A stretch of DNA of 64,000 bases, taken from positions 1 through 64,000 of IMG/VR virus record IMGVR_UViG_3300047319_000410, one strand, 5' to 3'. Positions 13,736 to 55,780 of the stretch are shown here, one piece after another. Below the pieces are notes generated by a model. It was not told the origin of the DNA. It saw only the letters and a list, made by a program, of their open reading frames with translations, and ran no database searches. The position numbers and the translations under genes are program-made. The first letter of the stretch is position 1, and the number at the start of each line of letters is the position of its first letter. This DNA comes from a virus.

Positions 13736-14667
13736 AATTGTACTCTACTTAAAATTGTTTGCCAAAATATCTTATTATTATACTTTTCTTTGAAAGTCTT
13801 ATATCCCCTTTGAGCTACTTGAGCACCAAAATGAGGAGATTCTATATGTGCTTCTATTAATTCTAGTAAATCTTTAGGGCTATTAAATTCAATATAGTCC
13901 CAAGCAGGCATAAATAGTTTTTCAGTAGCTTCGTTTTTCTTTTCTAACAGTAAATTACCGCTAGCTAATATTTCAAATACTCTACCCTTACATTGATCTT
14001 TACCTGTGGGAGACTCACAGAAATTAATTCCTATTCTTGATCTTCTGATATAGTTAGCATATTCTTTAGGACTTAATTTCTGCTCTCTTTGTCCACCGGT
14101 AACTAATAGATCTTTAAAATGTTCCTGCACATAATTAAGATATTTACTTCTATCGCTGTATCCATTAAGACTGCCAATAAAACTAGCTACATTAACCTTT
14201 TCTTCTGGTTTATTATAGAACATTGTTTCATCTTGGGGAGTCCATAATTTTAATTGTTTTTCAGGATACTCATGATTTATTACATCATAGTCCCAAGATA
14301 TATGAAGACTAGCAATATCTCCTAAAGAATTAATTTTATTTATTGACCATCCATAGTTTATATCAGGCCATACTATTGCAATTGGAACAGAGGCACTAAT
14401 CTTCTTTAAAAGCTCATCACTTGGATTACTTGGATGAGTACCAAGATAGGATAATACTACTAACTCAGGCTTCCATCCATTTAAACATGCAATAACAGCA
14501 CTATTAAATATATTCTTCTCCATTACATCATAATGGATAACTTTATACTCTCCTAACCCTGACTGTTTAAAAGTGGCAAATAAATTATTATAGTGATTAG
14601 ATAAACCTAAAGAAGGATTAGCGTCTGGGTGGCATTCAGTTAAAAACAATACACGTCTAGAATTCAT
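13732..14667 (-). CDS. CgeB-like GT-B glycosyltransferase
   Basis: A 311-residue protein with a C-terminal half typical of CgeB/family-1-like GT-B enzymes: YIRRSRIGINFCES, CKGRVFEILASGNLLL and a final EKYNNKIFWQTIL. The stretch GRVFEILASG is the donor-nucleotide-binding site with its glutamate. The N-terminal half begins RRVLFLTECHPDANPS. It overlaps the PfpI-like and radical SAM genes by 4 and 11 bases. Donor and acceptor are unknown. Confidence 0.75.
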   Translation of the reverse strand: MNSRRVLFLTECHPDANPSLGLSNHYNNLFATFKQSGLGEYKVIHYDVMEKNIFNSAVIACLNGWKPELVVLSYLGTHPSNPSDELLKKISASVPIAIVWPDINYGWSINKINSLGDIASLHISWDYDVINHEYPEKQLKLWTPQDETMFYNKPEEKVNVASFIGSLNGYSDRSKYLNYVQEHFKDLLVTGGQREQKLSPKEYANYIRRSRIGINFCESPTGKDQCKGRVFEILASGNLLLEKKNEATEKLFMPAWDYIEFNSPKDLLELIEAHIESPHFGAQVAQRGYKTFKEKYNNKIFWQTILSRVQL

Positions 14668-16441
14668 TTATAGCTTTTTTCTTAAATTTTTGTGCTCTGC
14701 GTCCAAACCAAATAGTCTCATATCCCCATTGAATCTTATCACCACTTTCAGGAGGAAAGGAGATATGATCTAATTGATAATCCACTATTCCTTTATTAAA
14801 GCAATTAAGATAATTCAGGAATTTAATTATCTCTTGTTTGAGTATGGTTCTATCTTGTACTAGCCTTAACCAACTGGCTTCTTCCATCGGCCAGCTAATA
14901 TCCCCTATTTTAGGGTCATAATGATCCCAGCCACCACCAGCATAACCCTTAGTGGCATGTAGAACTGCTTTATCATACTCATCTTTAAATAAAGAGGGCT
15001 GAGTTTTACAATACTCTAACAAACGATCATAAAAGTCATCTATATTTAAAGCGTTTTTAAAATAGTGTGCTAATAGTTCCATTATACCAAAAGCATGAAA
15101 TACTAACATCATCCAATTATAAGTATAAACCTCTATCATGTCATCTTCTGATAAAGAAGAGGTAGATCTTACCATTCTTTCATATTCAGGTATAATGTCT
15201 TTTCTATTACTAGAATGTTGTAAGAACACTGGAGACTTAAAGGTCTTAATTCCATAAGTTCTTTTATATTCCTCATCATTCATGGGTGCATTATTAAATA
15301 CACTACAGTTCCAAGTAAGGACTGATGGTAATGGATAAATTGCAGCTAGAATCTCCCAATTCCTTTTATAGGTTGCTACTGTTTCTCCAGGTAAACCCAT
15401 AATTAACTCAGTATAAGACTGTAATCCTTCGCTATCAAACTTAGTAACTAAGTCCTTAAAACTACTGAACTTAATATTGGCCCTCTTGATAACTTTAAGT
15501 GTATTAGGATCAAAGGTTTGTACCGATAATGATATTGCTCTTAATAATTCAGCGTCAGCTAATTTCTTAGCCATTGGAATTATCTTTTCAGATGAAGTCT
15601 TAACCCAGGTCAGCCCTAATTTACTAGGAAATCCAGTAGCCTTTTTTACTTCATTTAACTTGCAAGCTAGTTTATAATCTCTTTCAGGAAAGATACCAAA
15701 GTTACCATCACATACGTCTACATAGATAATTTCATTCTTACCAAACCATTCAATCTCTTTATATAATCGTTCTTCACTAAAGTTTCTTATTTTAGTTTTA
15801 GTAGCAGAGCCCCAATCACAAAAAGTACATTGAAATGGACAGCCTCTATTAGTTTCCCAAGAGGCTATAAACTTATAATTAGTATTTTTATCTACATAGT
15901 TCCACATTTCATCACTATAAGTAGAAGGAATTTCATCAAGATTAGTCATTCTATCTTGTGGAATAAATTTTTTACTTTTAACCTCACATCCGGGCACATC
16001 TACAGGATGCCCACATATTATATAATCAATATATCCCATTAATAAATTATGAAGAACTACTTCCCCCTCTCCATGTACTATAATATCAACATAGAAATGT
16101 TCTTCAAAAAAGTTAATATGAACATCTGGGACTTCCGGTCCTCCAAATATTATTATACATTGAGGATTTATCTTTTTAACTTCCTTAGCTAATAAACAGG
16201 TAATCTCCCAATTCCAACAATAACAGGAACATAATAGTATATCTGCATCTCTGCACTTCTCTATATCAGAATAAACATTATCCCTAATAAAGAATATCTT
16301 CTGAAAGTCAAAGTTATCCTGTATCTCCTTATGTTTATTGGAATACATTATATTTGTAAGTATACTATAAGGAAGGTGAATCTGATTATCACCAAAAAAA
16401 CAACTATACTGACTACTAAAGACTTTAAATTTACTTTTCAT
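14657..16441 (-). CDS. Cobalamin-binding-type radical SAM enzyme
   Basis: A 594-residue protein. An N-terminal Rossmann domain (GGPEVPDVHINF, VHGEGEVV) resembles the cobalamin-binding domain of B12-radical SAM enzymes. The radical SAM barrel follows with Cys201-x3-Cys205-x2-Cys208 (NRGCPFQCTFCDW) binding a 4Fe-4S cluster, and ELIMGLPGET later in the barrel. The last 200 residues are family-specific. Such enzymes often methylate unactivated carbon, or rearrange sugars. A GTG start 12 bases earlier (16453) is possible; ATG is preferred. Confidence 0.85.
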   Translation of the reverse strand: MKSKFKVFSSQYSCFFGDNQIHLPYSILTNIMYSNKHKEIQDNFDFQKIFFIRDNVYSDIEKCRDADILLCSCYCWNWEITCLLAKEVKKINPQCIIIFGGPEVPDVHINFFEEHFYVDIIVHGEGEVVLHNLLMGYIDYIICGHPVDVPGCEVKSKKFIPQDRMTNLDEIPSTYSDEMWNYVDKNTNYKFIASWETNRGCPFQCTFCDWGSATKTKIRNFSEERLYKEIEWFGKNEIIYVDVCDGNFGIFPERDYKLACKLNEVKKATGFPSKLGLTWVKTSSEKIIPMAKKLADAELLRAISLSVQTFDPNTLKVIKRANIKFSSFKDLVTKFDSEGLQSYTELIMGLPGETVATYKRNWEILAAIYPLPSVLTWNCSVFNNAPMNDEEYKRTYGIKTFKSPVFLQHSSNRKDIIPEYERMVRSTSSLSEDDMIEVYTYNWMMLVFHAFGIMELLAHYFKNALNIDDFYDRLLEYCKTQPSLFKDEYDKAVLHATKGYAGGGWDHYDPKIGDISWPMEEASWLRLVQDRTILKQEIIKFLNYLNCFNKGIVDYQLDHISFPPESGDKIQWGYETIWFGRRAQKFKKKAINEF

Positions 16442-16973
16442 GAAGATAATCACTGACTTCTACTAAGATAGTTGATTTACCTTTTTTGGCTTGCTCTAAT
16501 GCATTTTTATAAGAATATTGTATATCTACTAAACTGCCCAATCTTTGAACCCAAATATGATCTAACATTTGTTTCATAGGAGAAGTAAAATCTCCTGTGT
16601 GCTGTGGGCCTGGGTGCAAAGGTCTTTCGGATCCTATCCCAGTTCTTATTATAACTCCAGGTTTATATCCTCCATCAGACATAACTCCTATTTTATCTAA
16701 GTGATTAACCAACTGATTAATCCCTAACAATAAAAAGTTCCACCTAGGGAATATACTTATAGGAATAAAGCCTTCTAGGGCTAATCCAATGCTCATTCCC
16801 ATCTGCATCTCTTCGGCTACAGGTAATTCGAGCCTCTTTTCCATCGGAACATCAGCTAGTGTACCATACATGCCAGTACCAGGATAACTTACCGCCTGTC
16901 CTATAAAAATAGTATCAGGATGCTTTCCTAACATTGTCATAGAAGCCTTTAGATCATCAAAATACTTACCCAC
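16431..16973 (-). CDS. TPP-dependent E1 beta-like subunit, minimal (pair 2)
   Basis: A 180-residue protein matching only the pyrimidine-binding domain of E1 beta/transketolase, with LPVAEEMQMGMSIGLALEG keeping the conserved glutamate. The transketolase C-terminal domain of pair 1 is absent. The GTG at 16973 is chosen: it forms TAGTG with the upstream stop and has GGAGAAAGG 11 bases before it, whereas the longer ATG frame (17018) adds a Cys/Trp-rich segment that reads as an out-of-frame copy of the alpha gene's end. Confidence 0.7.
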   Translation of the reverse strand: MGKYFDDLKASMTMLGKHPDTIFIGQAVSYPGTGMYGTLADVPMEKRLELPVAEEMQMGMSIGLALEGFIPISIFPRWNFLLLGINQLVNHLDKIGVMSDGGYKPGVIIRTGIGSERPLHPGPQHTGDFTSPMKQMLDHIWVQRLGSLVDIQYSYKNALEQAKKGKSTILVEVSDYLHEK

Positions 16974-17587
16974 TAAAATTGTATCCTTTCTCCACTTAAA
17001 GGACCAGCATGAGGACAAGGTAAATCATAGCTATATCCATCTACATATTTAATAGGTAAACTTACTACCAAATCTTCTGTGTTATTATTAACCCAAGTAT
17101 TTCTAGTAGGGGTACAAACTGATTTACCATTATCTTCTATTATAAACTTTATGGGTAGATCGTGACCTATAACATACTTTATGGACTCCCAAAATATCCC
17201 TGTCTCTGCTGTCATATCACCAATAAAAACATAAACTTTAGAATCTCTATTCTTTAGTTTAATAGCTTTTGCTATTCCAACCCCTATAGGAATATTACCA
17301 CCAACAATAGCAGAGGATAAAATCTTATACTCGGGAAAACAAAGATTAATTGATCTTCCATTTAATATTGCTTGTTTAAGTTCCTCTTTTGGAACTCCCT
17401 TTAATAAACATTTATAATGGGATCTCCAGGTAGTAAGTACCCAATCTTGTTTTCTAATATCTTTAAATATCTCTATTAGTTGATCTTCATTATTTCTCTC
17501 TAAATGGATAGGAGCTTTAATCTGTTTATTAATAAAACAGTTAGAGATATCTTCCTCAAACTCTTGTAATTCAATTTTAGATAGCAT
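16973..17587 (-). CDS. TPP-dependent E1 alpha-like subunit, minimal (pair 2)
   Basis: A 204-residue thiamine-diphosphate-binding subunit with Gly123-Asp124 (GDMTAETG) and Glu151-Asp-Asn153-Gly, the two ends of the TPP/Mg motif, and GGNIPIGVGIAKA upstream. Together with the adjacent 180-residue beta it makes a very small two-subunit enzyme, roughly the size of a core transketolase without its third domain. The ATG at 17587 overlaps the radical SAM stop by 11 bases; a TTG six codons earlier is the alternative. Confidence 0.75.
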   Translation of the reverse strand: MLSKIELQEFEEDISNCFINKQIKAPIHLERNNEDQLIEIFKDIRKQDWVLTTWRSHYKCLLKGVPKEELKQAILNGRSINLCFPEYKILSSAIVGGNIPIGVGIAKAIKLKNRDSKVYVFIGDMTAETGIFWESIKYVIGHDLPIKFIIEDNGKSVCTPTRNTWVNNNTEDLVVSLPIKYVDGYSYDLPCPHAGPLSGERIQF

Positions 17588-19004
17588 ACTTTCTCTTAAG
17601 ATCAATCTTCATCATATTATTAATATCGTCAATTACATACTGACCAAACTTATCTTTCATGTAAGACAGATAAGAAGGATTAGAAAAATACTGCTTAAAA
17701 GCGCGATCCCTAAAAGTAAGCACTTCACCACCTGTAATATACTTAGTGTCAAGTGGCCTAGTCTCATAGGCATGTTGAGAATATCCCAACCATGTTTCAG
17801 GTAACTTCCAACCTTCTTTAATAGCGATTTCATATAATTTACTTCCGGGGTAAGCCATTGCACAGTAAAAATTAGCATACTCTGTTTTTAACTCTAAAGC
17901 TAAGTCCAGAGTACGCTGCATGGTTTCTTGATTATCCTCAGGTAATCCAAAGATATAATTAGCTCCAACACAAATGTCAAATTCTCTAATCTTCTTTACT
18001 ATATTAAGAATATTAACATCTTCATATTTACCTTTAACTACATCCTTACGAACCTCTTTAACTCCAGATTCAATGCCTAAAGCAAGCCAATTAACTCCTG
18101 CTTTCTTTAATATCTCTAAGTGTCTCTCTTTGACCGTATCAATACGAGAATAGCACCAAATATTAAAGTCATGTTTTCTTTCAGCTATTAACTTACAAAG
18201 CTCTAGGAAATGGTCTTCTACTAAGACAAACATTTCATCTGCAATCTTTACATTCTTAATACCCATTTCTGCTATTCTATCAAACTCTTTAATTGTATGC
18301 TTAGGATCCCAATATCTAATCATTTTCTTAGAGAATGGAGAGTTAATCATACAAAAGGTACAAGAAAATGGGCATCCAAGACTAGTATAAACTGATGCAA
18401 ATGGAGTTCTAATTCCTTTGTTAGTCCATCCATGCCAATTAGATGTTCGATATTTATCCATTGGTAATAAATCCCAAGCCATGCCAGGAAGTTTAGTTCC
18501 TAGTTCTTCTTGGGGAATTATAGATTCTGTATAAATATGATCAATTGGTCCTTTATTATTAAGGAAATCTAATATAGAGTCTAGTCCTTCTCCTTTAACT
18601 ACATAATCTGAACATATAGTATCCAAAGAATTTTGGGGTAGTGCAGAAATATGCCCACCAATCAACATAACTTTATATCTTGTACTGTAATAAGCCTCTA
18701 ATACATCTAATAATTTCTTTGCCCCTACCATATTTTGAGTAGATGCAGATGGTTGTTGACCATAAATTACTAGCACTACCAATCTAGGATTAAGTGCTCG
18801 TATTTGAAATACTGTGTCTTCACTTTGATAATTATTAGCTTCACAATCTAATATACCAACACTATAACCTTTAGCTCTTACTCCATTAGCTAGAAGGGAA
18901 GCCCAGATTGGCGGTTCCTTAGCACTATATTCAGTACTTAATCCTTGATATATTTTACTTGCGGCATTTGGGTGTACAAATAAAACGTCTAAATTACTTT
19001 GCAT
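17577..19004 (-). CDS. Cobalamin-binding-type radical SAM enzyme
   Basis: A 475-residue B12-radical SAM protein. The N-terminal 150 residues form the Rossmann cobalamin-binding-like domain (EPPIWASLLANGVRAKGYSV, LIGGHISALP, DYVVKGEG). The radical SAM cluster motif is Cys211-x3-Cys215-x2-Cys218 (LGCPFSCTFCMI), followed by ALGIESG and NYIFGLPEDN. The classical DxHxxG cobalamin motif was not seen, as in many relatives. It resembles enzymes in polysaccharide and hopanoid-type clusters; the reaction is not predictable. Confidence 0.87.
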   Translation of the reverse strand: MQSNLDVLFVHPNAASKIYQGLSTEYSAKEPPIWASLLANGVRAKGYSVGILDCEANNYQSEDTVFQIRALNPRLVVLVIYGQQPSASTQNMVGAKKLLDVLEAYYSTRYKVMLIGGHISALPQNSLDTICSDYVVKGEGLDSILDFLNNKGPIDHIYTESIIPQEELGTKLPGMAWDLLPMDKYRTSNWHGWTNKGIRTPFASVYTSLGCPFSCTFCMINSPFSKKMIRYWDPKHTIKEFDRIAEMGIKNVKIADEMFVLVEDHFLELCKLIAERKHDFNIWCYSRIDTVKERHLEILKKAGVNWLALGIESGVKEVRKDVVKGKYEDVNILNIVKKIREFDICVGANYIFGLPEDNQETMQRTLDLALELKTEYANFYCAMAYPGSKLYEIAIKEGWKLPETWLGYSQHAYETRPLDTKYITGGEVLTFRDRAFKQYFSNPSYLSYMKDKFGQYVIDDINNMMKIDLKRKYAI

Positions 19005-19200
19005 CTTTAATTTCTTTATATAACTTCTTAAACTCTTTTAAATCTACTTCTAATTCTTTAATAACTTCTTTAAGTCCTTGCTTATCTAAAGTTTCACTAT
19101 CACTACAACACCCGCAGCCAGGGGTTGAGGCTCTAATTTCTCCACCATCATCTATATAAATAGAATCATATCTTGCATTAAATAATCTTACGTATGTCAT
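18994..19200 (-). CDS. Hypothetical protein with GCGCC motif
   Basis: A 68-residue protein. After a beta-rich start (MTYVRLFNARYDSIYIDDG) comes TPGCGCCSDSE, a tight cysteine cluster that could bind metal or iron-sulfur. A charged coiled-coil-like tail follows. It overlaps the radical SAM gene by 11 bases, so a role as a small partner of that enzyme is possible but speculative. Confidence 0.55.
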   Translation of the reverse strand: MTYVRLFNARYDSIYIDDGGEIRASTPGCGCCSDSETLDKQGLKEVIKELEVDLKEFKKLYKEIKDAK

Positions 19201-19517
19201 TTTTTAATTAAACTTTCAATACTATTAAGAAATACTTTTGTAGCATCTTCTCTACCAAAATACATATACTCTGTAGTAGAATCATGTTCTTTATCAATAT
19301 TTACACACAGTACAGATGGATAATCAAAATTACATTTCTCGCACCATATAAACAAATTATATTCTGACCATTGTAATGTTTCATCCCAATCAACCTTACA
19401 TTTTGGACATCTATATCCCAGTTCACAAGGAAAATCAAAAGGAACTACATTAGTTGGCCTTTTGCCTACTAATTTTTCAGCCCTTTCATTTTTACTTATT
19501 ATTGACTGCGTTTCCAT
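19197..19517 (-). CDS. Zinc-ribbon protein
   Basis: A 106-residue protein with CPKC at its centre and CEKC about 20 residues later, a clear two-knuckle zinc ribbon. The surrounding sequence (LGYRCPKCKVDW, LFIWCEKCNFDYP) is aromatic-rich. Similar small proteins accompany glycosyltransferases in some phages. It overlaps its downstream neighbour by 4 bases and its upstream neighbour by 1. Confidence 0.6.
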   Translation of the reverse strand: METQSIISKNERAEKLVGKRPTNVVPFDFPCELGYRCPKCKVDWDETLQWSEYNLFIWCEKCNFDYPSVLCVNIDKEHDSTTEYMYFGREDATKVFLNSIESLIKK

Positions 19518-20521
19518 TATAAATTAGTGTAAGGTTGATTAGTTGGAAGTAAAATACTATATGCCTTGATAAGCTCTTTAATTCCGTCTCTAAGGCTGTA
19601 CTTAGGCTTAAATCCTAGAGCCTCGATCTTAGCATTGGAGACGAGGTAGTCCCTCTTATCAGGATCAGACCTTATCTCAGAAGATGCTATGCAAAAATCA
19701 GGGATATATTCTTTAATTCTTTCTGCTAGTTCTAACTTGGTTATATTAGTATCTGAAAGACCTACATTATATGCTTGACCCCTCATTCTATCAAAGTTAT
19801 TAATTGCAAAGATAAAGGCTAAGGCTACGTCATGAATATGGATAAAATTACGTTTAAATTCCTTCTCAAATAATACAATATACCCATCTTTTACTGCTTT
19901 GTAAGTAAAATCATTAACTAATAAGTCTAATCGCATTCTAGGAGAAGCTCCAAAGACAGTTGCTAGTCTTAATACTACTGCTCTACCATCTTCTAATAAC
20001 ATTCTCTCTGCGTCACACTTAGTTTTACCATAAACACTAATTGGTTTTAATGGAGTTTCCTCTGTACAGAACTTACCTGATCCTTCTCCTAATCCATAGC
20101 CACTATTAGTATTAGGGAATATAATCTTTGCTTCTGGCCTAGCATACATTAAGATATTAGCAATTTGATTCCAATTAACGTCCCAAGCTAGTTTTTGATC
20201 TTTATCACAGGCTGGGAATCCTACTATCGCTGCTAAAGGTATAATTACGTCTGCTTCTTTTACATATTTTGCTAATTTAACTTCGTCTCTAACGTCTCCA
20301 TGTACAAACTCTATATCTCCCTTGTAGCAATAATCAGTAAGATTAACTTGTTTATACATTAGCGAGTCGTAGCACACGATTTTATCATAATAGAACCTAT
20401 ATTCTGGGTGATTCTCTTTAAAGTCAAAGTCTAAAAATCCTGATATAGTCTTAGCAGTTATTAGTTTTTGAACTAATACAGAACCAAGATAACCATTACT
20501 GCCCGTTATAAGAATATTCAT
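19517..20521 (-). CDS. NAD-dependent epimerase/dehydratase (extended SDR)
   Basis: A 334-residue extended short-chain dehydrogenase with the Rossmann motif TGSNGYLG, a VYGKTK catalytic Tyr-x3-Lys, and RNFIHIHDVA. It would act on a nucleotide sugar (epimerase, dehydratase or reductase type). The closest-looking relatives are polysaccharide-cluster SDRs of unassigned substrate. The start is the ATG overlapping the upstream TAA (TAATG); a TTG two codons earlier is an alternative. It belongs to a different subtype from the gmd and Fcl-like genes. Confidence 0.85.
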   Translation of the reverse strand: MNILITGSNGYLGSVLVQKLITAKTISGFLDFDFKENHPEYRFYYDKIVCYDSLMYKQVNLTDYCYKGDIEFVHGDVRDEVKLAKYVKEADVIIPLAAIVGFPACDKDQKLAWDVNWNQIANILMYARPEAKIIFPNTNSGYGLGEGSGKFCTEETPLKPISVYGKTKCDAERMLLEDGRAVVLRLATVFGASPRMRLDLLVNDFTYKAVKDGYIVLFEKEFKRNFIHIHDVALAFIFAINNFDRMRGQAYNVGLSDTNITKLELAERIKEYIPDFCIASSEIRSDPDKRDYLVSNAKIEALGFKPKYSLRDGIKELIKAYSILLPTNQPYTNL

Positions 20522-21030
20522 TACCAACTAATCTCCCAATCTTTAAAATCTGCTGCGAGACAATCAATTTTATAATCTTTTCTTCCGCCCTCTAAATATT
20601 CTTGAATCTTATTTTTAGCAGTATTTCTTATACCATTAAGGCCATGAGTTAATTCAAGATTATTACCATCTTTAATTCCTTTACGATAATTTGTTTCATT
20701 ATGCCATATATGAAGATTCATTTGTGATAATACCATTATTGCTCTTATGAAATTTGCATCAATATCTTCATAGGGAATACCTCCTATAGCAATATCAATA
20801 TCGTGTAAGATATCTTTAATCTCTTTAGCATACTCTTCTTTATGTTCTTTAATAAAAACTTCTTTAAGTTGAGCAATGCTAAGACGATCAATAAGTTCTG
20901 CTAAAGTAGGAAGATATTTTCTTTCCCTATTTTTAAATGATTCCTCTACGTCAATATAAGTGACTGGAGGTTCCAATGGGACTTCTTTGCCTAATATTCT
21001 AACACATCCATTTTTTGGATCATAAACCAT
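20521..21030 (-). CDS. Conserved phage protein with LTHGLNGIRNTAKN motif
   Basis: A 169-residue helical protein with WHNETNYRKG and LTHGLNGIRNTAKNKI in its C-terminal third. I recall similar short segments in unnamed proteins of T4-like cyanophages, but the function is not known. It sits between a glycosyltransferase and an epimerase, touching both by 1 base. The N-terminal part is short beta-rich, the rest alpha-helical. Confidence 0.55.
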   Translation of the reverse strand: MVYDPKNGCVRILGKEVPLEPPVTYIDVEESFKNRERKYLPTLAELIDRLSIAQLKEVFIKEHKEEYAKEIKDILHDIDIAIGGIPYEDIDANFIRAIMVLSQMNLHIWHNETNYRKGIKDGNNLELTHGLNGIRNTAKNKIQEYLEGGRKDYKIDCLAADFKDWEISW

Positions 21031-44135: not shown

Positions 44136-46391
44136 TTATGGCACTATTACCCAAGTATTTGATTTTAATGAGGGAACTCCACCAGCCCCACCAAATCCAG
44201 GAACTATAGTCTCAGGAATACAAAAATTACCTCCATTAGTATCAGTAAATGGAAGACAATCAATAGTAGACCCACAACTAGGAGGACCCTGCTCAGGGAA
44301 TAAAGTTAATAATTTATTTAAATCATCAAAAGTAAAAGCCGCTGGCTGATAAACTTCCCTACCATCCCTAAATATTTGACTTGGACAGGCATTAAAATCA
44401 GTCAACATAGTTTTAACTTCAGAAGTTAAATTTAAAGTTGATCCAGTAGATAGCCCAGCAAAATTAGTATAAAGTAATAAAGTATCTATATTAAAAGCAC
44501 TAACAATAGAAATAGTATTAATAGCAGAAGCAATATTATAAGTATAATTACTCCACCCAGAGAAATCTTGAACTATGCCAAACTGTAAGAATCTCCCATC
44601 CCTATCTACCCACATATTACAAGAAGATGGATAAGTTAAAGTACAAGAAGCCAAGAAATTACAGGCAAATGTAGGATCCATTGCACTCCAAGCATGATTT
44701 CCTGGTCCTGCGGATACTACTAAAGTCTTACCACTATATCCTAAAGTAGAAGTTAAATAGTTATATAAAATTCTAGTAGAAGAAGCCAAATAAGCTACTG
44801 GTTCATTAGAAGTAACAAAACACATAGTAGTTATATGCTTTAAATTATTAGCCAATGTTCCACTTGCATAAGCAACCGCAGAAGTATTTTGATCAATAGT
44901 AATTAAAGATCCTTGCTCATATTCAAATGGTCTTTGCTCTGGTTGAAGTGCAGAAACTTCAGACCAAAACTGACCTTGGAAAGGGAAATAATCAGGATTA
45001 GCTCTGCCCGCTAATAAAAATCTAGACTCTGTGGTAGCATTATTATCTTCATACTGAGTAAATCTAGCGGAAGTTCCTCCAGTATGAATTATAATTCCAG
45101 CGAATAATCCATCAACAGGATCTAAATATCTAGCTGCGTATTGACCCGCATTACCAGAATGTGAAAAGCTAACTCCAAGTATTCTTCTTCTATCAATATT
45201 AGGATATGTATCTAACATATATCTAATTGATCTTCTGGTATTTTCAAAAGAAGCTACGTTTCCTCTGTTTCTTATCTGCGTAACATTAGGAATTATAGGT
45301 CCAACCTGCCCAGTTGGAATTAATAAATACCAACCTCTATCTACTGTTTGTTGATAGAATTGAGTATTATGTAGTGCATTATTAGTTCCGCTATAAGCAT
45401 CTTCATTCCAAGCATGAAATACTACTAATAATGGAGCAGTAGTTTCTCCAGTGTTATAGCAAGAAGGAACAGAGAAAAAAGCTGTTTCTCCATAAGCGGT
45501 TCCTGTTATAGAAGAAGTAAAAGTAAAAGTTCCTGAGAATCCAGCATTACAATCACCAGGAGGTCCACTACTTCCAGATCCAGCTCCCCCACCAGATCCA
45601 GTAAATGCTACTGAACTAAAGATGGTGTCACCACCATTAAACATATCAACTTCTAAATTTATCTCTTGAATGTCACCAGTAGAAGTATAAAGATATTTTT
45701 TAGTTGGGAGATAAGCTTGTACCTGAATCTCAAATTGTTTTCTTATTACCCTATCTTCTCTATCTCCAACAATATAAGATGAATTATCTCCAAACTCGTT
45801 AATAAAGGCTAGGGTCTTATTACTGAATTTAGTAACTACAGTTAGGGCCGGATTGAATAAAGAAAATACTTGCTCCTTAATTTGATCGAGGTCTTCAGTA
45901 TACTTAACCCAAACATTAAGAAGATAAATTATCTTTACTGGTCTGGATACTAAAGAAATTATACGTTCATTTTTTGCTATACCAGTATCCCTAATGGTCT
46001 GAGCATAGACCATAGGATTAAATCGTCTTCTAGTATCGTCGTTTTCGTCCCCAACTTGACTAATAGAAAGGAAAGGAAGAACTAAATTCTCTTCCTTCAT
46101 TAAACTTGCTACTGCACGCTCTGGATTAGCATATACACACTTAATAGGAATTCTTTGATCATCTTTTCCTAAAAATTGAAATTGATTAAAATTATTTTTT
46201 AAAGATTTAAGAGTTTCTTTATAAAGTTGGCTTATACCTGTTTTATCTTTTCCTGCTTCATTAATGAATTGTCTCATTAATTCAAAAGGATAATACGCTT
46301 GACTTCTTGCTACTGTAGAGTGAGCAATAATATCATCATTATTGTCAAACGATGAAGTAGATAATTCTGTTAAATTAATTAAATTAGGCAT
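44136..46391 (-). CDS. gp15-like tail completion protein fused to an esterase
   Basis: A 751-residue two-part protein. Residues 1-250 resemble T4 gp15, the tail sheath stabiliser/terminator: YYPFELMRQF, TRRRFNPMVYA, VKIIYLLNVWVKYTEDLDQI and RKQFEIQVQAYLPTKKYLY. A Gly/Ser linker (258-278) follows. Residues about 283-590 look like a polyhydroxybutyrate-depolymerase/feruloyl-esterase-type alpha/beta hydrolase: LLVVFHAWNE, GVSFSHSG (Ser408 or Ser410 as nucleophile) and GNHAW (His566). The last 150 residues are another domain. The fusion would place a polysaccharide-deacetylating or ester-cleaving activity at the tail neck. Confidence 0.78.
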   Translation of the reverse strand: MPNLINLTELSTSSFDNNDDIIAHSTVARSQAYYPFELMRQFINEAGKDKTGISQLYKETLKSLKNNFNQFQFLGKDDQRIPIKCVYANPERAVASLMKEENLVLPFLSISQVGDENDDTRRRFNPMVYAQTIRDTGIAKNERIISLVSRPVKIIYLLNVWVKYTEDLDQIKEQVFSLFNPALTVVTKFSNKTLAFINEFGDNSSYIVGDREDRVIRKQFEIQVQAYLPTKKYLYTSTGDIQEINLEVDMFNGGDTIFSSVAFTGSGGGAGSGSSGPPGDCNAGFSGTFTFTSSITGTAYGETAFFSVPSCYNTGETTAPLLVVFHAWNEDAYSGTNNALHNTQFYQQTVDRGWYLLIPTGQVGPIIPNVTQIRNRGNVASFENTRRSIRYMLDTYPNIDRRRILGVSFSHSGNAGQYAARYLDPVDGLFAGIIIHTGGTSARFTQYEDNNATTESRFLLAGRANPDYFPFQGQFWSEVSALQPEQRPFEYEQGSLITIDQNTSAVAYASGTLANNLKHITTMCFVTSNEPVAYLASSTRILYNYLTSTLGYSGKTLVVSAGPGNHAWSAMDPTFACNFLASCTLTYPSSCNMWVDRDGRFLQFGIVQDFSGWSNYTYNIASAINTISIVSAFNIDTLLLYTNFAGLSTGSTLNLTSEVKTMLTDFNACPSQIFRDGREVYQPAAFTFDDLNKLLTLFPEQGPPSCGSTIDCLPFTDTNGGNFCIPETIVPGFGGAGGVPSLKSNTWVIVP

Positions 46392-46951: not shown

Positions 46952-47242
46952 TTATTTCTTCTCTAATAACTTTCCCAATCTTAATATAACTTTCATTTTC
47001 TTTTGTTGAATTTTTTGCATAGCATCTAATTCAGTTTTAGCAATTTTAGTTACTTTATGTTTTGGTCCAAGACTTTTCTCATATACTCCGTGTTCTAATA
47101 ACTTTGCTTTTATTTCTTTACTTAACTTTTTATACTCTTGAATACATTTTTTATAACCACGAGCTTCTCCTGACCAAGTATGAGTAGGTTGGTTATTAAG
47201 ATAATCTATAAATTTATTCGCATCAAGAGCTACATTATCCAT
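46952..47242 (-). CDS. Basic helical protein with WSGEARGYKK motif
   Basis: A 96-residue, very basic, helical protein. TWSGEARGYKKCIQEYKKLSK resembles WSGATRAYHKLSK of the next gene (47242-47568), so the two are probably related. Unknown function; the charge suggests DNA or scaffold contact inside the head or neck. Confidence 0.55.
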   Translation of the reverse strand: MDNVALDANKFIDYLNNQPTHTWSGEARGYKKCIQEYKKLSKEIKAKLLEHGVYEKSLGPKHKVTKIAKTELDAMQKIQQKKMKVILRLGKLLEKK

Positions 47243-47568
47243 TAATGATTTTTAAATATTTCTTTGTACTTTTCTATTCGTTTATGATTTTTTAATATTC
47301 CACTAACCACATCTGTACTAGTAAATTTTCTCTTATTTCTTCGTTTTGTATTTTCTGGATTTTGTGGAATAGCATCATAAGCTCTATACATTTTTCTACT
47401 AATCTTATCTCTTTTTTTATCAATATTAGCAGCAGCCTTATGATTACCCAAATCTTTCATAGCCGCTGCTCTATAATGACCACTAGCATTTTGTTTTGAT
47501 AATTTATGATAAGCTCTAGTAGCCCCAGACCACTCAGACTCCTGTAATAATTCTAATAATAATTTCAT
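47242..47568 (-). CDS. Very basic protein with ESEWSGATRAYHK motif
   Basis: A 108-residue, lysine- and arginine-rich protein. The start MKLLLELLQESEWSG contains L-Q-E-S, a fit to the prohead-protease cleavage pattern, directly before the WSGATRAYHK motif, and the rest (KKRDKISRKMYRAYDA, NTKRRNKRKF) is strongly basic. ATG at 47568 is chosen, two bases after the gp13 stop. It groups with the basic proteins at 52284-54861 as a possible internal head protein. Confidence 0.6.
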   Translation of the reverse strand: MKLLLELLQESEWSGATRAYHKLSKQNASGHYRAAAMKDLGNHKAAANIDKKRDKISRKMYRAYDAIPQNPENTKRRNKRKFTSTDVVSGILKNHKRIEKYKEIFKNH

Positions 47569-49448: not shown

Positions 49449-50999
49449 CTAGGTACGCTGTGGCCCGGAATTCGTGTCACGCCCGTACGGTACGAATAGA
49501 TAGTTACTAATCGGGCCTATGATTCTTATAATTCTGAAGAATCTAGACTCTGGAGTTATTGAAACCTTGCCATATCGAGTAAGGATACCCTTTCTTGGTT
49601 GGAAGGTTAACGGATCAGTAACCGTTGGTAGTGCTTGCAATGGAATATATGGGCAATAAACATATCCTTGATCCATTGGACTAGAACCACGATATCCCAT
49701 CATAATTTCATCTTCTGGGTATAGTGGGTCAATATAAAGGTCATACTTGTTAGCAAATTTACCCTTATATTCAATTGCATTAGGACCCATATTGGTAGGA
49801 CGATCAGCCATATCAATTCCACCATGAAGCTTACTTGAAGTTTCAAGAATAGAACCAATTAGTGGTGAAGTTACCATCCAAGTTCCGGGCCCTCTTAGAG
49901 TTGACTTCCAAATATCTTGTGATGCAAGATTAATTACACCCATCAAGTTAGCATAAACATCGCCAACGTGACGAGGAGCAAACGGAAGTGAACTAGAGGT
50001 AAAGTCAATAACAAAGACGTTTGAAAGCGTCTGTGCTGGGTTGCCTTGACCTGTGGTAGCTGCGTTTGCAAAGTCATATAAGAACTGAGCAGGAGTGAAT
50101 CCTGTTCCATCATTAAGGAAGTTATTACTGTTTGACTGATCTAGGTAAGATCTATTAAATCCACCAAATGAACCAGAAACATCATAAGAAATCATTCTGA
50201 GGTCTTCAACTAACTCTCGGTCGATTTCAAGAGTAAGTTCCTTACTAAGTAAATCAGTAAGTTCTGACTCAAGGTCGATATTGTGATAAGCCTTCAAGTC
50301 TTGACCAGCTTCAATAGTCCATAGAGCACGCATCTTACGTGTTCTAGCTTCTACTGGTTGTTGTTCAATGTGAAGGTTTAACTCTGCAATTGCTGAACCT
50401 GAGAGACGCTCACCACCTGAAGTATTATAACCAAGAATGGTTGTTTGATCAGGCCAAGCTGCAATCTGACCACCATAGGTAGTAGAAGGAGAACCAGAAG
50501 CCCAAGATAACAATTGAGCAAGAGTAGGAGAAGGAGTTACATCCGAGTCCAAGTTTGCATTATTACCGAAGATACTTGAGGTTACGAAGTTACGATAAGT
50601 AAGATTATACTTACTGTAAACAGTTTGAGTTCTTTGTGTTCCACCATCAGGGCCACCGACTCTATCAAATCCCATATAGAAGACTTGTGAGACCGGACCT
50701 TGCATAGGTTGAACGCCAACAATGTAGTTTGCAATTAGTTGTGGGAATACCCTGCGAACTAAAGGAAATGCAAACTTTTGGAATGTACCAAGCTTACCAA
50801 CAGTAGTAGGTGAATCACCAGTACCGAATGCTTCATCGATACTGCCTTCTTTAATACCTTCAACTATTACAGACTTGGCTTGATTTTCTAGAAGTTGAGC
50901 AGTTACCTTCCTAATGTAACTATTCTTTATATCCCCTACAATAGGGTTCCACTTCTTAACCAGTGATTCACTGATTCGTGAGGCAACTACATCATTCAT
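49449..50999 (-). CDS. Major capsid protein, gp23-like
   Basis: A 516-residue HK97-fold capsid protein of the T4 gp23 family. Conserved points are FPLVRRVFPQLIANYIVGVQPMQGP after a short pro-region, and the typical gp23 C-terminal ISPESRF-like SITPESRFFRIIRIIGPI. The pro-region contains I45-V-E47|G, I49-K-E51|G and I54-D-E56|A, three sites fitting the gp21 cleavage rule, so the mature protein probably starts near residue 48-57 (T4 cuts after 65). Followed by a strong terminator. Confidence 0.92.
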   Translation of the reverse strand: MNDVVASRISESLVKKWNPIVGDIKNSYIRKVTAQLLENQAKSVIVEGIKEGSIDEAFGTGDSPTTVGKLGTFQKFAFPLVRRVFPQLIANYIVGVQPMQGPVSQVFYMGFDRVGGPDGGTQRTQTVYSKYNLTYRNFVTSSIFGNNANLDSDVTPSPTLAQLLSWASGSPSTTYGGQIAAWPDQTTILGYNTSGGERLSGSAIAELNLHIEQQPVEARTRKMRALWTIEAGQDLKAYHNIDLESELTDLLSKELTLEIDRELVEDLRMISYDVSGSFGGFNRSYLDQSNSNNFLNDGTGFTPAQFLYDFANAATTGQGNPAQTLSNVFVIDFTSSSLPFAPRHVGDVYANLMGVINLASQDIWKSTLRGPGTWMVTSPLIGSILETSSKLHGGIDMADRPTNMGPNAIEYKGKFANKYDLYIDPLYPEDEIMMGYRGSSPMDQGYVYCPYIPLQALPTVTDPLTFQPRKGILTRYGKVSITPESRFFRIIRIIGPISNYLFVPYGRDTNSGPQRT

Positions 51000-51007
51000 A
51001 TTATCTA

Positions 51008-51628
51008 TTACTCCTTAATTAAGTTTTTTGTTAATTTAATTACTTCTTCTGTCAACCACGGATTATCGTTTTCTTCCGCTGGCTTTTTATCTGCATTATT
51101 TATAACGATAGCTTTTTCAGATGATTTAAAAGGCTTCGCAACTTGTTCAGTTAGAGTCTTAACCTTCTCACCTAATTTATTACCAGTCTTAGATAATAAA
51201 ATGTTCTTTTGTTCTAATACTTTTGCAGTATTACTAAGTTTAGCATTTTCAGCTAATACTTTCTTCATTTCAACTACTAGAGTTGAAAGTTCTTCTTTTA
51301 ATTGAGAGTTTTCATCTTCAATATCAGATTTAGCATTTTCTCTATCTTGTTCATTTAACTCAATTGCCATTACTGATTTAAAACTCTTCATTAGTTCTGC
51401 GTCTCTAAAAACTTGATTCTCTTCTCCAAGTTCTTTTAATGCTTGTTCCTTAATTTCGTTCTTTTGTAATTCTAAGTAACCTAAGACTTTAGCACTAAGT
51501 TCTTTTTTAACTGCATCAACCTCTTCGGTAATATGGGATTGAACTAATTCAGCAATCTTGTTTACCGAAGCCTCACTTAAACCCTCAGGTAAAAGTTCTG
51601 CAATCTTAATAGTTTTATTCTTTTTCAT
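51008..51628 (-). CDS. Prohead core scaffold, gp22-like
   Basis: A 206-residue helical scaffold protein between protease and capsid genes, the T4 order 21-22-23. It is acidic and coiled-coil, with L-P-E|G and L-S-E|A near the N-terminus (LLPEGLSEAS), matching protease sites that in T4 degrade gp22 to peptides before packaging. The C-terminus NPWLTEEVIKLTKNL is typical for these scaffolds. Confidence 0.8.
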   Translation of the reverse strand: MKKNKTIKIAELLPEGLSEASVNKIAELVQSHITEEVDAVKKELSAKVLGYLELQKNEIKEQALKELGEENQVFRDAELMKSFKSVMAIELNEQDRENAKSDIEDENSQLKEELSTLVVEMKKVLAENAKLSNTAKVLEQKNILLSKTGNKLGEKVKTLTEQVAKPFKSSEKAIVINNADKKPAEENDNPWLTEEVIKLTKNLIKE

Positions 51629-51679: not shown

Positions 51680-52300
51680 TTATTTTCTGTGTTCATTAAG
51701 TTTAGATTTTAATAATTGGATAAAAATCTTCTCATTTAATGACTTATTATAAACTTGCTTACATTTGTCTCCATAGCACTTAGATTCAAATAAATCTAAG
51801 GTAGCTCCTATAGTGGATTCATCAGGAACCAGATCAAAGGTAACTAAACTAAAGTCATCATTAACTTCCCATTTAGCTCCGTTAGTTTCTTCTTTTAATT
51901 CAGTTAAAGTTCCGCCACCACGACTAGAGATTCCTAAGGTTACTCCATCTTTAATTAAAGTCTGAGCTATTTGACCTTTGGGAGTGTTTAAAAGTTCAAT
52001 TTCTCCCCAAACATCATTACCTTCCATCTTTAATCCTGTAACTCTATGGGAAGCATCAGAGTATTTAACATTTAATCTATCGGGATGGTCTAATTCTCCT
52101 AATAGTCTATGTTCATTAATTAAAGGAATTAATTTACCTACTTCTCTTTCAAGCAAGGTCTTCTTATAAATTCTTTGGTTTCTATTGGGAGTTTCTGCTC
52201 TTTGAAATAAACCTTTAAGTTTCATAGTGCCATTAGAGGCTGACTCTGAAACTATACAAGATTTACTTAAAGGATAGAATTCATTAAGAATTTTTAACAT
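51680..52300 (-). CDS. Prohead protease, gp21-like
   Basis: A 206-residue protease of the T4 gp21/herpes assemblin fold. GELDHP gives the catalytic His72, SDASHR a second His85, and LGISSRG the nucleophile serine (125/126). In T4 it cleaves after glutamate in [I/L]-x-E|[G/A/S] sequences of head proteins. The N-terminal 16 codons overlap the upstream basic-protein gene by 17 bases. Confidence 0.88.
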   Translation of the reverse strand: MLKILNEFYPLSKSCIVSESASNGTMKLKGLFQRAETPNRNQRIYKKTLLEREVGKLIPLINEHRLLGELDHPDRLNVKYSDASHRVTGLKMEGNDVWGEIELLNTPKGQIAQTLIKDGVTLGISSRGGGTLTELKEETNGAKWEVNDDFSLVTFDLVPDESTIGATLDLFESKCYGDKCKQVYNKSLNEKIFIQLLKSKLNEHRK

Positions 52301-53075
52301 TGTTTTTTAAATCTATTTTCTTTTTAGTATTTTTTATTCCATGTATAGACTTTATATCTTTTTTAACTTCTTTGCCGGCGTGTTCAGCAGTTTTAGGGCG
52401 AATAAAAGTCTCTGGGTGATTTCTTGTTCTTATTTTACTTTCTAAACTAGAAAGTCTTTTATATCTAGCTTTGCCTAAACTACCCTCTGAAACCTTAAGT
52501 TTTAAACGATGCATTATATTATGATTGCCACTCTTTAATCTAGCACCATCTTTAACTGTTTTTTTATAACTCATCTTAGCAGAATTAGATAATGCAGTTT
52601 CCCATCTTCGATGCATAAAGGGATTATCCATATGATCTTGAGTTATTAATTGAACTCCTCTTTTAATTCTGTGTTGTTTAGCTCTTTCTACTCTTCTTGC
52701 ACCATAAGTAGATTCTTTAATCTTACGTCCACCTGCGAGATATTTCTGTTGAACTCTTTGAGCATAGCCCTTAATATCTGCTACTGGGGTATCTGCTGAA
52801 AATCCTTTATAAACTTTCTTTTTACCTGCTAAGTGAGATTTCTTTCCCCAAGTCGGGCGAGTAACAACATAAATTCTATTACTTCTATGAGTAGAGAATA
52901 TAGATCCATAATCTGCTCTATCTACTCCTTGGCCTAAAGTTTTAAATTGTCTAAATTTACCTTTTTTACCTCTAGCCTCACTAGATTTTGCACCACCTCC
53001 AGCCAAGTACTTACTTTTTGGCTTTCGTGTTAATCTCTTGATCCTACTCTCTTCAATTAAATCTAATAGATTCAT
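52284..53075 (-). CDS. Basic head-associated protein 1 with protease-site motifs
   Basis: A 263-residue, Lys/Arg/Gly-rich protein. It contains K-Y-L-A-G-G twice and three sites fitting the prohead-protease rule: I7-E-E|S, I119-K-E|S (KESTYGARRVERAKQHRI) and V195-S-E|G (SEGSLGKARYKRL). The motif after each site (G-x-x-R-x-x-R) recurs in the next two proteins. It is likely an internal head protein packaged with DNA, cut by gp21; this is inference from charge, sites and position. Confidence 0.65.
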   Translation of the reverse strand: MNLLDLIEESRIKRLTRKPKSKYLAGGGAKSSEARGKKGKFRQFKTLGQGVDRADYGSIFSTHRSNRIYVVTRPTWGKKSHLAGKKKVYKGFSADTPVADIKGYAQRVQQKYLAGGRKIKESTYGARRVERAKQHRIKRGVQLITQDHMDNPFMHRRWETALSNSAKMSYKKTVKDGARLKSGNHNIMHRLKLKVSEGSLGKARYKRLSSLESKIRTRNHPETFIRPKTAEHAGKEVKKDIKSIHGIKNTKKKIDLKNNVKNS

Positions 53076-53629
53076 TATCGTTGTTTATCATAAATATTAT
53101 TTATGATACCTAATAATTTCTTTTCTTTTTTAGTTTTAGTATTCTTTAAATATCTACGATATCTTGTAGGCCAGATTACTCCCTTGCCCGCACTCTTTCT
53201 ACCAGGACCACCCATATTAACTCCGATTGATCCAACTGTAGTTCCTATACTTGCTCCTGTAATTTCATCAATTAATTTTTGAGCTTCATTTAAAAGAGAT
53301 TGAATCTTTTTAACTTTAGATTCTTTTACTTCTTTTTGATCTTTTCTAAATTTTCTTTTTAATTTAACTTTATCATGTAAAGAATCTGCTCTTTTTCCTT
53401 TTTCAACTCTACCTTTTCCGTGTTTTGGACTAAAGGATTTTATACTACTCATGTGCATTCTCATTAATCGTTTATGTCCAATACTGCCCTCATCTATTTT
53501 ATCTAAATTAATCTTAGAGATATCTGGCATATCATAATCAGGATGAGGAGGAAGTATATTTGTTGCACCAGGAGTTTTTAGCATCTCCTCTAAGATATTC
53601 ATTGATTCTGATATTAATGATTTAGCCAT
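53075..53629 (-). CDS. Basic head-associated protein 2 with protease-site motifs
   Basis: A 184-residue basic protein. I6-S-E|S and I45-D-E|G (DEGSIGHKRLMRMH) match the protease rule, and L113-N-E|A lies before a glycine-rich stretch (GASIGTTVGSIGVNMGGPG). The EGSIG-x-KR-x-x-R motif is the same as in its neighbours. Very Lys-rich between 70 and 110. Overlaps both neighbours by 1 base. Confidence 0.65.
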   Translation of the reverse strand: MAKSLISESMNILEEMLKTPGATNILPPHPDYDMPDISKINLDKIDEGSIGHKRLMRMHMSSIKSFSPKHGKGRVEKGKRADSLHDKVKLKRKFRKDQKEVKESKVKKIQSLLNEAQKLIDEITGASIGTTVGSIGVNMGGPGRKSAGKGVIWPTRYRRYLKNTKTKKEKKLLGIINNIYDKQR

Positions 53630-54861
53630 TATTCATCATTTCCTATATGTAAACTTCCAAATCTATGTTTTCTCTTTAATTTTAATTTCTTTTGATATTG
53701 TATGGAAGTAGCAAGAGTACTTTTAAGTTTATCTCTATTTATGAAAGTTTCTCCTGGAGGACTAATAGCTTTAGTTACTCTATGAGCGATTCTCTTATTT
53801 CTTTTAACCCCAATACTACCTTCTTTAATTAAACTCTTTTCTGCTTCAATAAATCGTTCTACTTGTCTCTTAATATGAGCAAAGTCTTTTGATTTAGGGA
53901 ATCTACCTTTATTATTTTTAAGTTTAATCCCCCTAGCTGCTAATCTAGATGCTGAGGCTTGTCTATTAATTAATTGAAGTTTTCTACCTTCTCTTGATCT
54001 TAGTGCTTGTGGGCCTTGTTTAGTTAATTTCTTTAGTCCTGAATTAGCACCATGAGTTACTTTGTTAGCAGATTTAATACTCTTATGCTTTTCATGTTCT
54101 GCTGACTTTTTAGCAGAGTAATTAGTTAGTTTATTAGCTGCTTTGTGGCCGTGGAATGATAACTTTCTAACTCCTCTACCAATTAAACCTGCTAATCCAC
54201 CTAAGAATTCATTAATATTCTCTTGGTTAGCTTCAATGCCTTTAGATTCTAAGAACTGAGTTACTATTTTAGTTGCCTGTTCTTTAGTTACGGATTTATA
54301 ATTACGTTTTGCTCGAAGATTTTTTTTATGACTAATATAATCTGTAGAAACTTTATCTAATTTAGATTCCGTACCTTTACTAAATCCATGTTTATCTAAT
54401 AATTTTGCACCAACTTTTCTAATTCTTAGCATCCTTTTAGCACCAAGACTTCCTTCTTCTATGGACTCTTTAACTTTCTTTTTCTTAGTTACTGAAACTG
54501 ATTTATCAAAGTTTTTCATAGCAGGAGCAACAGTACCATAATAAGCACCGGCATTAAACTCAGAACCTTGAGTCTTTCGATTCCTCATTTTGTTCATTAT
54601 ATTGTATACTTGAGACTTCTTCTTACCCGCCTTTTCAGCAGATAAATTTTTATACATATTTAATTGAGTAGCAATACGTTTTCCTGTTCCTACTCCACTT
54701 CCGCCTGTAGTCTCGCCCTCTTGAACTGATTCTTTCATTTTCTTTTTCTTACCCTTATGAGGTTTTAGGCCTGTAGACGAAACACAAATAGGCCATGCAC
54801 TATCTTTAGCTTTGCCTTTTGCAATTAAATGCTTAACACAGCGTTCAAGTTTTTCTGGCAT
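53629..54861 (-). CDS. Basic head-associated protein 3 with protease-site motifs
   Basis: A 410-residue, strongly basic protein. The N-terminus ERCVKHLIAKGKAKDSAW with ICVSSTG resembles a motif seen in head proteins of other phages. Sites fitting the protease rule: V46-Q-E|G, I134-E-E|G (EGSLGAKRMLRIRK) and I345-K-E|G (EGSIGVKRNKRIAHR). Cleavage would release several basic peptides. The C-terminus is KKLKLKRKHRFGS. It may also hold separate functional domains, e.g. residues 200-300, helical. Confidence 0.65.
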   Translation of the reverse strand: MPEKLERCVKHLIAKGKAKDSAWPICVSSTGLKPHKGKKKKMKESVQEGETTGGSGVGTGKRIATQLNMYKNLSAEKAGKKKSQVYNIMNKMRNRKTQGSEFNAGAYYGTVAPAMKNFDKSVSVTKKKKVKESIEEGSLGAKRMLRIRKVGAKLLDKHGFSKGTESKLDKVSTDYISHKKNLRAKRNYKSVTKEQATKIVTQFLESKGIEANQENINEFLGGLAGLIGRGVRKLSFHGHKAANKLTNYSAKKSAEHEKHKSIKSANKVTHGANSGLKKLTKQGPQALRSREGRKLQLINRQASASRLAARGIKLKNNKGRFPKSKDFAHIKRQVERFIEAEKSLIKEGSIGVKRNKRIAHRVTKAISPPGETFINRDKLKSTLATSIQYQKKLKLKRKHRFGSLHIGNDE

Positions 54862-54864
54862 AAA

Positions 54865-55413
54865 TTAATTATTATCAATACAACAGCCCCAAGCACATCC
54901 AATAAATGCTGTCTCAGCGGCTTGTTGGGCATTAGAAAGAGTAGTTGCTATAGTATTAGCACTAGCAGTAAAGGTATTAGCACAAGTCTGCATAGCAGCA
55001 AAATATGTATTTTTACACACAGTTCTTTCAGCAGCATTATGTGCGGCTAATAAACATGCCGTATAAGCATTTCCAGCGGTTGTTGTACATCCATTATAAG
55101 TAACAGCAGCATCATCATAAGATGCACACGCAGCCGCATATGCACTATTAACGCTGTCATTATAAGAAGTTTCACACCAAGAAACACATAATACATCTAG
55201 ATATTTTCCTTCTGGACATGGTGTTGGATCTGGTGGACTTGGAATCAAACCATTGCAATATGGATTTGTCGAATCATGAAAAACTACAGGAATAAATGGA
55301 GTTGGAGCAGTTATAATAGTTGTGGTAACAGGTTTAAATCCAGCACCCATAAAGAATGCTGAAATCATAAAAAGTACACAAAGACTTGTAAGAATATACT
55401 TAGTCTTATTCAT
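54865..55413 (-). CDS. Cysteine-rich protein with signal/TM segment
   Basis: A 182-residue protein with an N-terminal hydrophobic segment (YILTSLCVLFMISAFFMGAG), then a proline-rich stretch and a low-charge, Ala/Thr/Asn-rich region with about a dozen cysteines (AYAAACASYDD, CAWGCCIDNN). The cysteines suggest disulfides in the periplasm. Odd among head genes; no family recognised. ATG at 55413 overlaps the acidic gene's stop; a longer frame starts seven codons earlier. Confidence 0.6.
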   Translation of the reverse strand: MNKTKYILTSLCVLFMISAFFMGAGFKPVTTTIITAPTPFIPVVFHDSTNPYCNGLIPSPPDPTPCPEGKYLDVLCVSWCETSYNDSVNSAYAAACASYDDAAVTYNGCTTTAGNAYTACLLAAHNAAERTVCKNTYFAAMQTCANTFTASANTIATTLSNAQQAAETAFIGCAWGCCIDNN

Positions 55414-55780
55414 CTTCGTCCTCATTTTCATCATCAGGACCGTCCTCCTCTTCAGTTTCTTCTTCTACTTCCTCTTCTATGGTTTCTTCGTTTTCCTCAG
55501 ATTCCATAGCTTCGGTAATAGCAGTTAGATTTTCATAAAGAGTTGAGAATCTCTCTAGAAGAGTTTCGTCGTCAAAGTCTTCAGGAAGTTCATTCTCACA
55601 AAGAGGGCAGAAATGAGTTTCTTGCTCATTAACCTCTTCTGCTTCGTCTTCCTTTTCCTTCTTACTTTCTACAACTACTTCCTTTTTATCTTCTACTGGA
55701 GCCTCTACTTCCTTAGTATTAAAGCCAGAGCGTTCCATTAAAAAGTTACGAACATTATCATTAATAGTAAATCCATCCAT
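55406..55780 (-). CDS. Very acidic protein, possible prohead core
   Basis: A 124-residue protein, about one third Glu/Asp, with a CPLCENELPE zinc-knuckle-like segment (HFCPLCENE) in the middle and an almost purely acidic end (DDENEDEDE). Acidic tails occur in T4 prohead core proteins gp67 and gp68. Its negative charge would balance the basic proteins. Position between the basic cluster and PAAR gene is unusual for gp67. Confidence 0.55.
   Translation of the reverse strand: MDGFTINDNVRNFLMERSGFNTKEVEAPVEDKKEVVVESKKEKEDEAEEVNEQETHFCPLCENELPEDFDDETLLERFSTLYENLTAITEAMESEENEETIEEEVEEETEEEDGPDDENEDEDE

Follow-up and report, generated by a model that had tools for sequence, protein, structure and literature searches.

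Three basic proteins encoded beside the prohead protease gene of an uncultured T4-like phage are probably trimmed proteins of the head interior

Three consecutive genes for Lys/Arg-rich proteins lie upstream of a gp21-like protease gene in an uncultured T4-like virus of bacteria, which raises the question of whether their products are head proteins that this protease cuts. The window, by which we mean the whole stretch of DNA analysed, is 64,000 nucleotides of a 67.6-kb virus record (IMGVR_UViG_3300047319_000410). A preliminary description had read the three proteins, here called P1, P2 and P3, as polyproteins cut into DNA-binding peptides that are packaged in the head. Their positions and their richness in Lys and Arg (98 such residues against 33 Asp and Glu in P1, 41 against 20 in P2 and 67 against 21 in P3) were borne out; the open reading frames are on the minus strand and abut or overlap one another and the protease gene. 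In the order of minus-strand transcription an acidic 124-residue protein and a Cys-rich 189-residue protein are followed by P1, P2, P3, the gp21-family protease, a scaffold-like protein and a gp23-family capsid protein (Table 1). The T4 order compared with it is portal (20), 67, 68, 21, 22, 23. The Cys-rich protein (54865-55434, minus strand), encoded between the acidic gene and P1, has a signal-peptide-like start and gave no Pfam or PHROG match; relatives have nothing at this place.

Table 1. Features of the head-gene region in window coordinates; all cuts are predicted, and site rows give the codon of the Glu preceding the cut.
Feature	Coordinates	Strand	Remarks
P1, basic, 410 aa, net +65	53629..54861	-	predicted cuts after E44, E48, E132, E136, E347
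P1 N-terminal two-Cys motif ERCVKHLIAKGKAKDSAWPICVSSTG	54769..54861	-	
P1 site IEE136|GSLGAKRMLR	54454..54456	-	
P1 site IKE347|GSIGVKRNKR	53821..53823	-	
P2, basic, 184 aa, T4 gp68 position	53075..53629	-	predicted cuts after E8, E47, E103, E115
P2 site IDE47|GSIGHKRLMR	53489..53491	-	
P2 best-conserved stretch, E122 to G143, (L/I)-x-E-x-T...TTVGSIGVNMGGPG	53201..53266	-	
P3, basic, 263 aa, net +46	52284..53075	-	predicted cuts after E9, E121, E197
P3 N-terminal leader MNLLDLIEE|S	53049..53075	-	resembles T4 capsid-targeting sequence
P3 conserved domain, residues 41-112, alpha/beta model	52740..52955	-	
P3 site IKE121|STYGARRVER	52713..52715	-	
P3 site VSE197|GSLGKARYKR	52485..52487	-	
Prohead protease, S77/gp21 family	51680..52300	-	Pfam PF03420 E=1e-22; PHROG 207 E=2.5e-48; T4 gp21 alignment
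Scaffold protein, gp22 position	51008..51628	-	N-terminal-region site LPEGLSE|A, kept in relatives
Major capsid protein, gp23 family	49449..50999	-	Pfam PF07068 E=1.5e-75; IVE47|G, IKE51|G, IDE56|A in pro-region
Acidic 124-aa protein, T4 gp67 position	55406..55780	-	kept upstream of P2 in relatives

The features of an S77 processing system are present, namely a gp21-family protease encoded beside a gp23-family capsid protein and hydrophobic-x-E sites in the capsid pro-region. A His and a Ser of the protease align with H85 and S140 of T4 gp21, which we take to be the catalytic residues, and the protease has an N-terminal site of its own, VSE19|S. The capsid protein, whose best cultured counterparts are about 30% identical, carries four [ILVM]-x-E-[GSA] sites in its first 65 residues against 0.34 expected, among them the three pro-region sites named in the preliminary description. 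One of these, IDE|A, aligns with a hydrophobic-x-E site in relatives, mostly VDE|A, LSE|D, VDE|D or MDE|A. Since relatives use V and M at this aligned site, both residues appear to be normal in the group at the third position before the cut. The T4 gp21 rule is L/I-x-E (PMC9026906); the proposed equality with it needs the qualification that V is also used here.

We found that P1-P3 together hold 12 predicted sites of the form [ILVM]-x-E|[GSA] against 2.1 expected, the underlying L/I-x-E motif being short and common. None of 2000 composition-keeping shuffles reached 12, and P1, P2 and P3 were each singly above chance. When P1-P3, the protease, the scaffold and the capsid protein were set aside, the 77 other open reading frames of the window contained 50 sites against 52.4 expected; the excess is confined to P1-P3 and the capsid pro-region. 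Applied to T4, the same count gave 28 sites in nine known gp21 substrates (12.1 expected) and 144 in the 221 other open reading frames (133.8 expected). An N-terminal site was present in 8 of the 9 substrates and in 20 of the 221 others. The excess over expectation in P1-P3 is greater than that of the T4 substrates taken together. High counts are also given by acidic helix-rich proteins, namely the scaffold and the acidic gene product, and may in part reflect helix periodicity. Since these two are Glu-rich and probably helical, we give their excess less weight than that of P3 or the capsid protein.

Some of the sites share a longer context. The pattern E-[GS]-[ST]-[ILY]-G was seen five times in P1-P3, while 20,000 composition-keeping shuffles gave a mean of 0.013 and a maximum of 1. 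In all five copies the third position before the cut is I or V, as had been described (IEE|G, IKE|G, IDE|G, IKE|S and VSE|G). The strict motif E-[GS]-S-[IL]-G-x-[KR]-R-x-x-R had been ascribed to all three proteins; this holds for P1 (residues 136 and 347) and P2 (residue 47) but not for P3, which has near matches only. At P3 residue 197, EGSLGKARYKR has no K/R at the required place, and at residue 121, ESTYGARRVER deviates by its T and Y. EGS[IL]G was found nowhere else among the 83 open reading frames selected and was absent from the basic proteins of related loci. Since even related loci do not conserve EGS[IL]G-KR, this context is not a general recognition rule. The suggested comparison of the repeats upheld only a short shared context. 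Downstream of it the five copies resemble one another weakly (ten pairs, best p values 0.03 and 0.05), and we therefore rejected the possibility that each opens a longer repeated domain some 55 residues long. Recurrence of site contexts within one genome was in slight excess overall (mean identity 0.105 against 0.078), with few clear cases, for example L062, L068 and L080. Another recurring context, roughly Y-x-x-[MLI]-G-x-[LI]-[LIM]-A-E|[AS]-[ML]-G-L, was observed in basic proteins near head genes (L056, L062, L063, L080, L086, L087, L092 and L095) and is sometimes repeated within a genome.

The related loci were 80 in number and came from a capsid-based scan; they are related to one another, and only near-identical sequences were removed. 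We found that they share the order acidic-P2-P3-protease-scaffold-gp23, which matches T4 67-68-21-22-23. N-terminal sites were present in 26 of 32 P3 relatives (1.1 expected), 42 of 43 proteases, 50 of 53 scaffold proteins and 57 of 60 capsid proteins. The neck protein, used as a negative control, had such a site in 0 of 59. The stretch between P3 and the scaffold gene is variable in the relatives. It holds added basic genes in some (L023, L026 and L077, for example) and a protease lengthened by a basic extension, at most about 630 residues long, in others (L055, L062, L063 and L069), and these basic genes or extensions carry such sites too. Proteases with long basic C-terminal extensions were observed in L055, L061-L063, L067, L069, L076, L080, L124, L171, L178 and L179, the longest such protease measuring 835 aa overall. 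Several of the extensions contain additional protease-type sites; they are apparently internal basic proteins fused to the protease. When the neighbourhood of the capsid gene was inspected in the cultured relative RM378, no such basic genes adjoined it; a protein with many such sites lies just upstream.

P3 has a folded part. Residues 41-112 gave a confident alpha/beta model (block mean pLDDT mostly 86-95), and a 128-aa relative was modelled with the same core. The predicted cuts at 9 and 121 bracket this domain and none falls inside it. In most relatives the entire protein is the counterpart of the 112-residue product between these cuts. Thus the reading of P3 as a mere polyprotein of peptides did not survive. 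The site LIEE9|S ends a leader like those of internal proteins, which span about 10-20 residues up to a protease site. None of the aligned relatives shares the tail from residue 122 onward (L083 has another one); in this phage it carries two further basic pieces between predicted cuts. The predicted fragments 10-121, 122-197 and 198-263 each have a pI above 10. Single-sequence searches of viral contigs and cultured phages found no relatives of P3, which surfaced only after loci had been gathered via the capsid protein. A profile scan then matched 189 places in viral contigs, of which 80 were kept, and one place in a contig of a Prochlorococcus single-cell assembly that has the same head cassette. 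The domain had no match in Pfam, PHROGs, PDB sequences, PDB folds or BFVD, and fold searches with both the full-length and the short model returned nothing below E=0.001.

The P3 domain is not confined to head cassettes. In 18 loci (L119, L122, L123, L132, L139, L150, L158-L166, L169, L170 and L172) it has recA and a ClpA-like AAA gene as neighbours, with no head genes nearby. The 16 records that matched contain one copy each. In one relative of 118 kb, G001, it lies at 43 kb beside recA, about 38 kb from the head genes, which occupy 79-81.5 kb. With identical sequences set aside, 36 of 39 head-side versions have a protease-type site ahead of the domain, compared with 2 of 14 recA-side versions (Fisher p=1.3e-7, uncorrected for relatedness, which makes such p-values too small). 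This contrast links the site to the head context. The gene neighbourhood hints that the domain handles nucleic acid. A speculative and rather doubtful extension is that it is a phage nucleic-acid-binding domain that alternates between a form free in the cell, encoded beside recA, and a form packaged in the head, encoded beside the protease; gain or loss of a cleavable leader would be the switch, and a tail of extra cut-out basic peptides would have grown in this phage.

P2 is a conserved family found in many related loci by iterated profile search, where it follows the acidic gene and precedes P3 and the protease. Its only invariant column is a Glu (E122), with a hydrophobic residue two before it and TTVG[SA]IGVN after it. 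The stretch from E122 to G143 resembles the mature capsid N-terminus of relatives, E|ATTVGNLG, and may, judging by this likeness, contain a further cut site. The leader site of P2, LISE8|S, is weak, and 9 of 31 relatives have a site in their first 28 residues against 4.2 expected. The head cassette of G001 reads acidic-P2-protease-scaffold-capsid. Since this cassette has P2 but no P3, P2 looks like the prohead core protein at the gp68 position, and no Pfam or PHROG match to its members names a gp68 family. Because most fragments of the T4 core proteins leave the head, packaging of P2 pieces is not implied.

P1 is particular to this phage except for its N-terminal Cys motif; single-sequence searches found no relatives in cultured-phage records or viral contigs. 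Its first 31 residues contain the two-Cys motif, and a similar one starts a basic multi-site protein in L060/L061 and stands at the C-terminal end of P2 in L055, L067 and L069. This sharing suggests that P1 was assembled from parts of the group's head proteins. P1 lacks an N-terminal leader site. The pattern KKKK-[MV]-K-E-S-[VI]-[QE]-E-G occurs in two copies, around residues 44-48 and 132-136, and the large predicted fragments 49-132, 137-347 and 348-410 each have a pI above 10. All predicted P1-P3 fragments of more than 40 residues are basic (pI 10.0-11.1), and the P2 stretch 9-47 is acidic.

We think it likely that P1-P3 are prohead core or internal head proteins of a T4-like phage that are trimmed by its own S77 protease. 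Predicted processing by the adjoining gp21-type protease and a prohead location, both proposed in the preliminary description, are well supported by the site enrichment, the T4 gene order, the T4 control, the negative neck protein and the contrast between head-side and recA-side loci. The proteins would be produced along with the protease, scaffold and capsid proteins, assemble inside the prohead and be cut by the protease after [I/V/L]-x-E. P2 would take the place of T4 gp68. P3 would act like a T4 internal protein, with leader removal freeing a basic folded domain, and its extra tail in this phage would be cut into two more basic pieces. P1 would be a variable basic protein that is cut several times. 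The basic products would most likely fill or condense the head interior, and they may stay there and be ejected with the DNA. That the proteins are actually cut, and that their products are retained in the virion and bind DNA, is what we infer.

It could instead be that all three are purely scaffolding, so that the cuts destroy P1-P3, the fragments exit before DNA packaging and there are no packaged DNA-binding peptides. We give this a real but lesser chance. P2 in the gp68 position and the several sites per protein would suit it, and in T4 the fragments of the core proteins gp67, gp68 and gp22 are mostly removed (PMC9026906). However, nearly all predicted fragments are strongly basic and so suited to staying with DNA, and P3 keeps a group-conserved folded domain intact between its cuts, which a throw-away scaffold would not need.

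The remaining doubts concern the sites and the location of P3. That P3 is chiefly an intracellular nucleic-acid-binding protein, its protease neighbourhood being incidental, is suggested by the recA-side relatives with no head genes near, and by G001, whose head cassette lacks P3 while the domain lies far off. We consider this improbable, as the protease-site leader is common in head-cassette versions and rare beside recA. It is very improbable that the sites stay uncut and arise from the composition or local helix patterns of Lys/Glu-rich proteins. The motif is short and the high counts of the scaffold and acidic gene products may partly be helix periodicity, but composition-keeping shuffles reproduce neither the number of sites nor the five copies of the extended context, the other proteins of the window are at expectation, the neck protein has no N-terminal site and the presence of the P3 site follows gene location.

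Proteins of the kind preferred here, cut inside the head by the phage's protease, are known from T4 and from giant phages (PMC9026906, PMC5694885); the protein families and their arrangement are new. T4 gp67, gp68 and gp22 are each cut several times by gp21, and T4 internal proteins are brought in by a leader, about 10 residues long, which is later removed (PMC9026906). Like gp67 and gp68, the genes described here lie directly upstream of the gene 21 counterpart, with an acidic protein and then one with a basic C-terminus in T4. In contrast to T4 there are three basic genes instead of one, and P2 has the TTVGSIGVNMGGPG block. The proposed likeness to T4 internal proteins of unrelated sequence fits P3 but not P2, which is gp68-positioned and core-like. 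IPI, IPII and IPIII have an N-terminal leader ending in L/I-x-E that the prohead protease removes, and the P3 leader is of the same type. P3 differs in having no profile, sequence or fold match to these or any other family in the libraries searched. Its gene adjoins the protease gene, a location that T4 internal protein genes do not share. Unlike in the T4 proteins, internal cuts are also predicted for P1 and the P3 tail. In the giant phages phiKZ, 201phi2-1 and SPN3US a protease related to gp21 cuts many head-interior proteins behind the Glu of a short motif, and the propeptides have redundant cut sites (PMC5694885, PMC9026906). Their motif is A/S-x-E, however, and no sequence relation to P1-P3 was found.

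On this reading, head-interior proteins processed by a protease would also occur in a large T4-like group that is known from metagenomes and apparently uncultured. P3 represents a protein family that matches more than 180 viral-contig places and is absent from Pfam, PHROGs and structure libraries. Predicting head-interior proteins is difficult owing to the scant sequence similarity among internal proteins, and a cut site linked to gene location offers a test, from sequence only, for phage proteins entering the head.

Elsewhere on the minus strand of the window, a basic protein at 47242-47568 has a leader-like start, MKLLLELLQE|SEWSG, and both it and its neighbour at 46952-47242 carry W-S-G-x-[AT]-R-[GA]-Y. 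They had no PHROG match and are possibly further internal head proteins. The protein at 44136-46391 joins an N-terminus like that of a tail-sheath stabiliser (PHROG 227) to a long part that by eye is serine-hydrolase-like (GVSFSHSGN). A long gene block at 4229-20527, a large share of the phage fragment, has products that by eye resemble sugar-nucleotide, glycosyltransferase, transketolase-like and radical-SAM enzymes.
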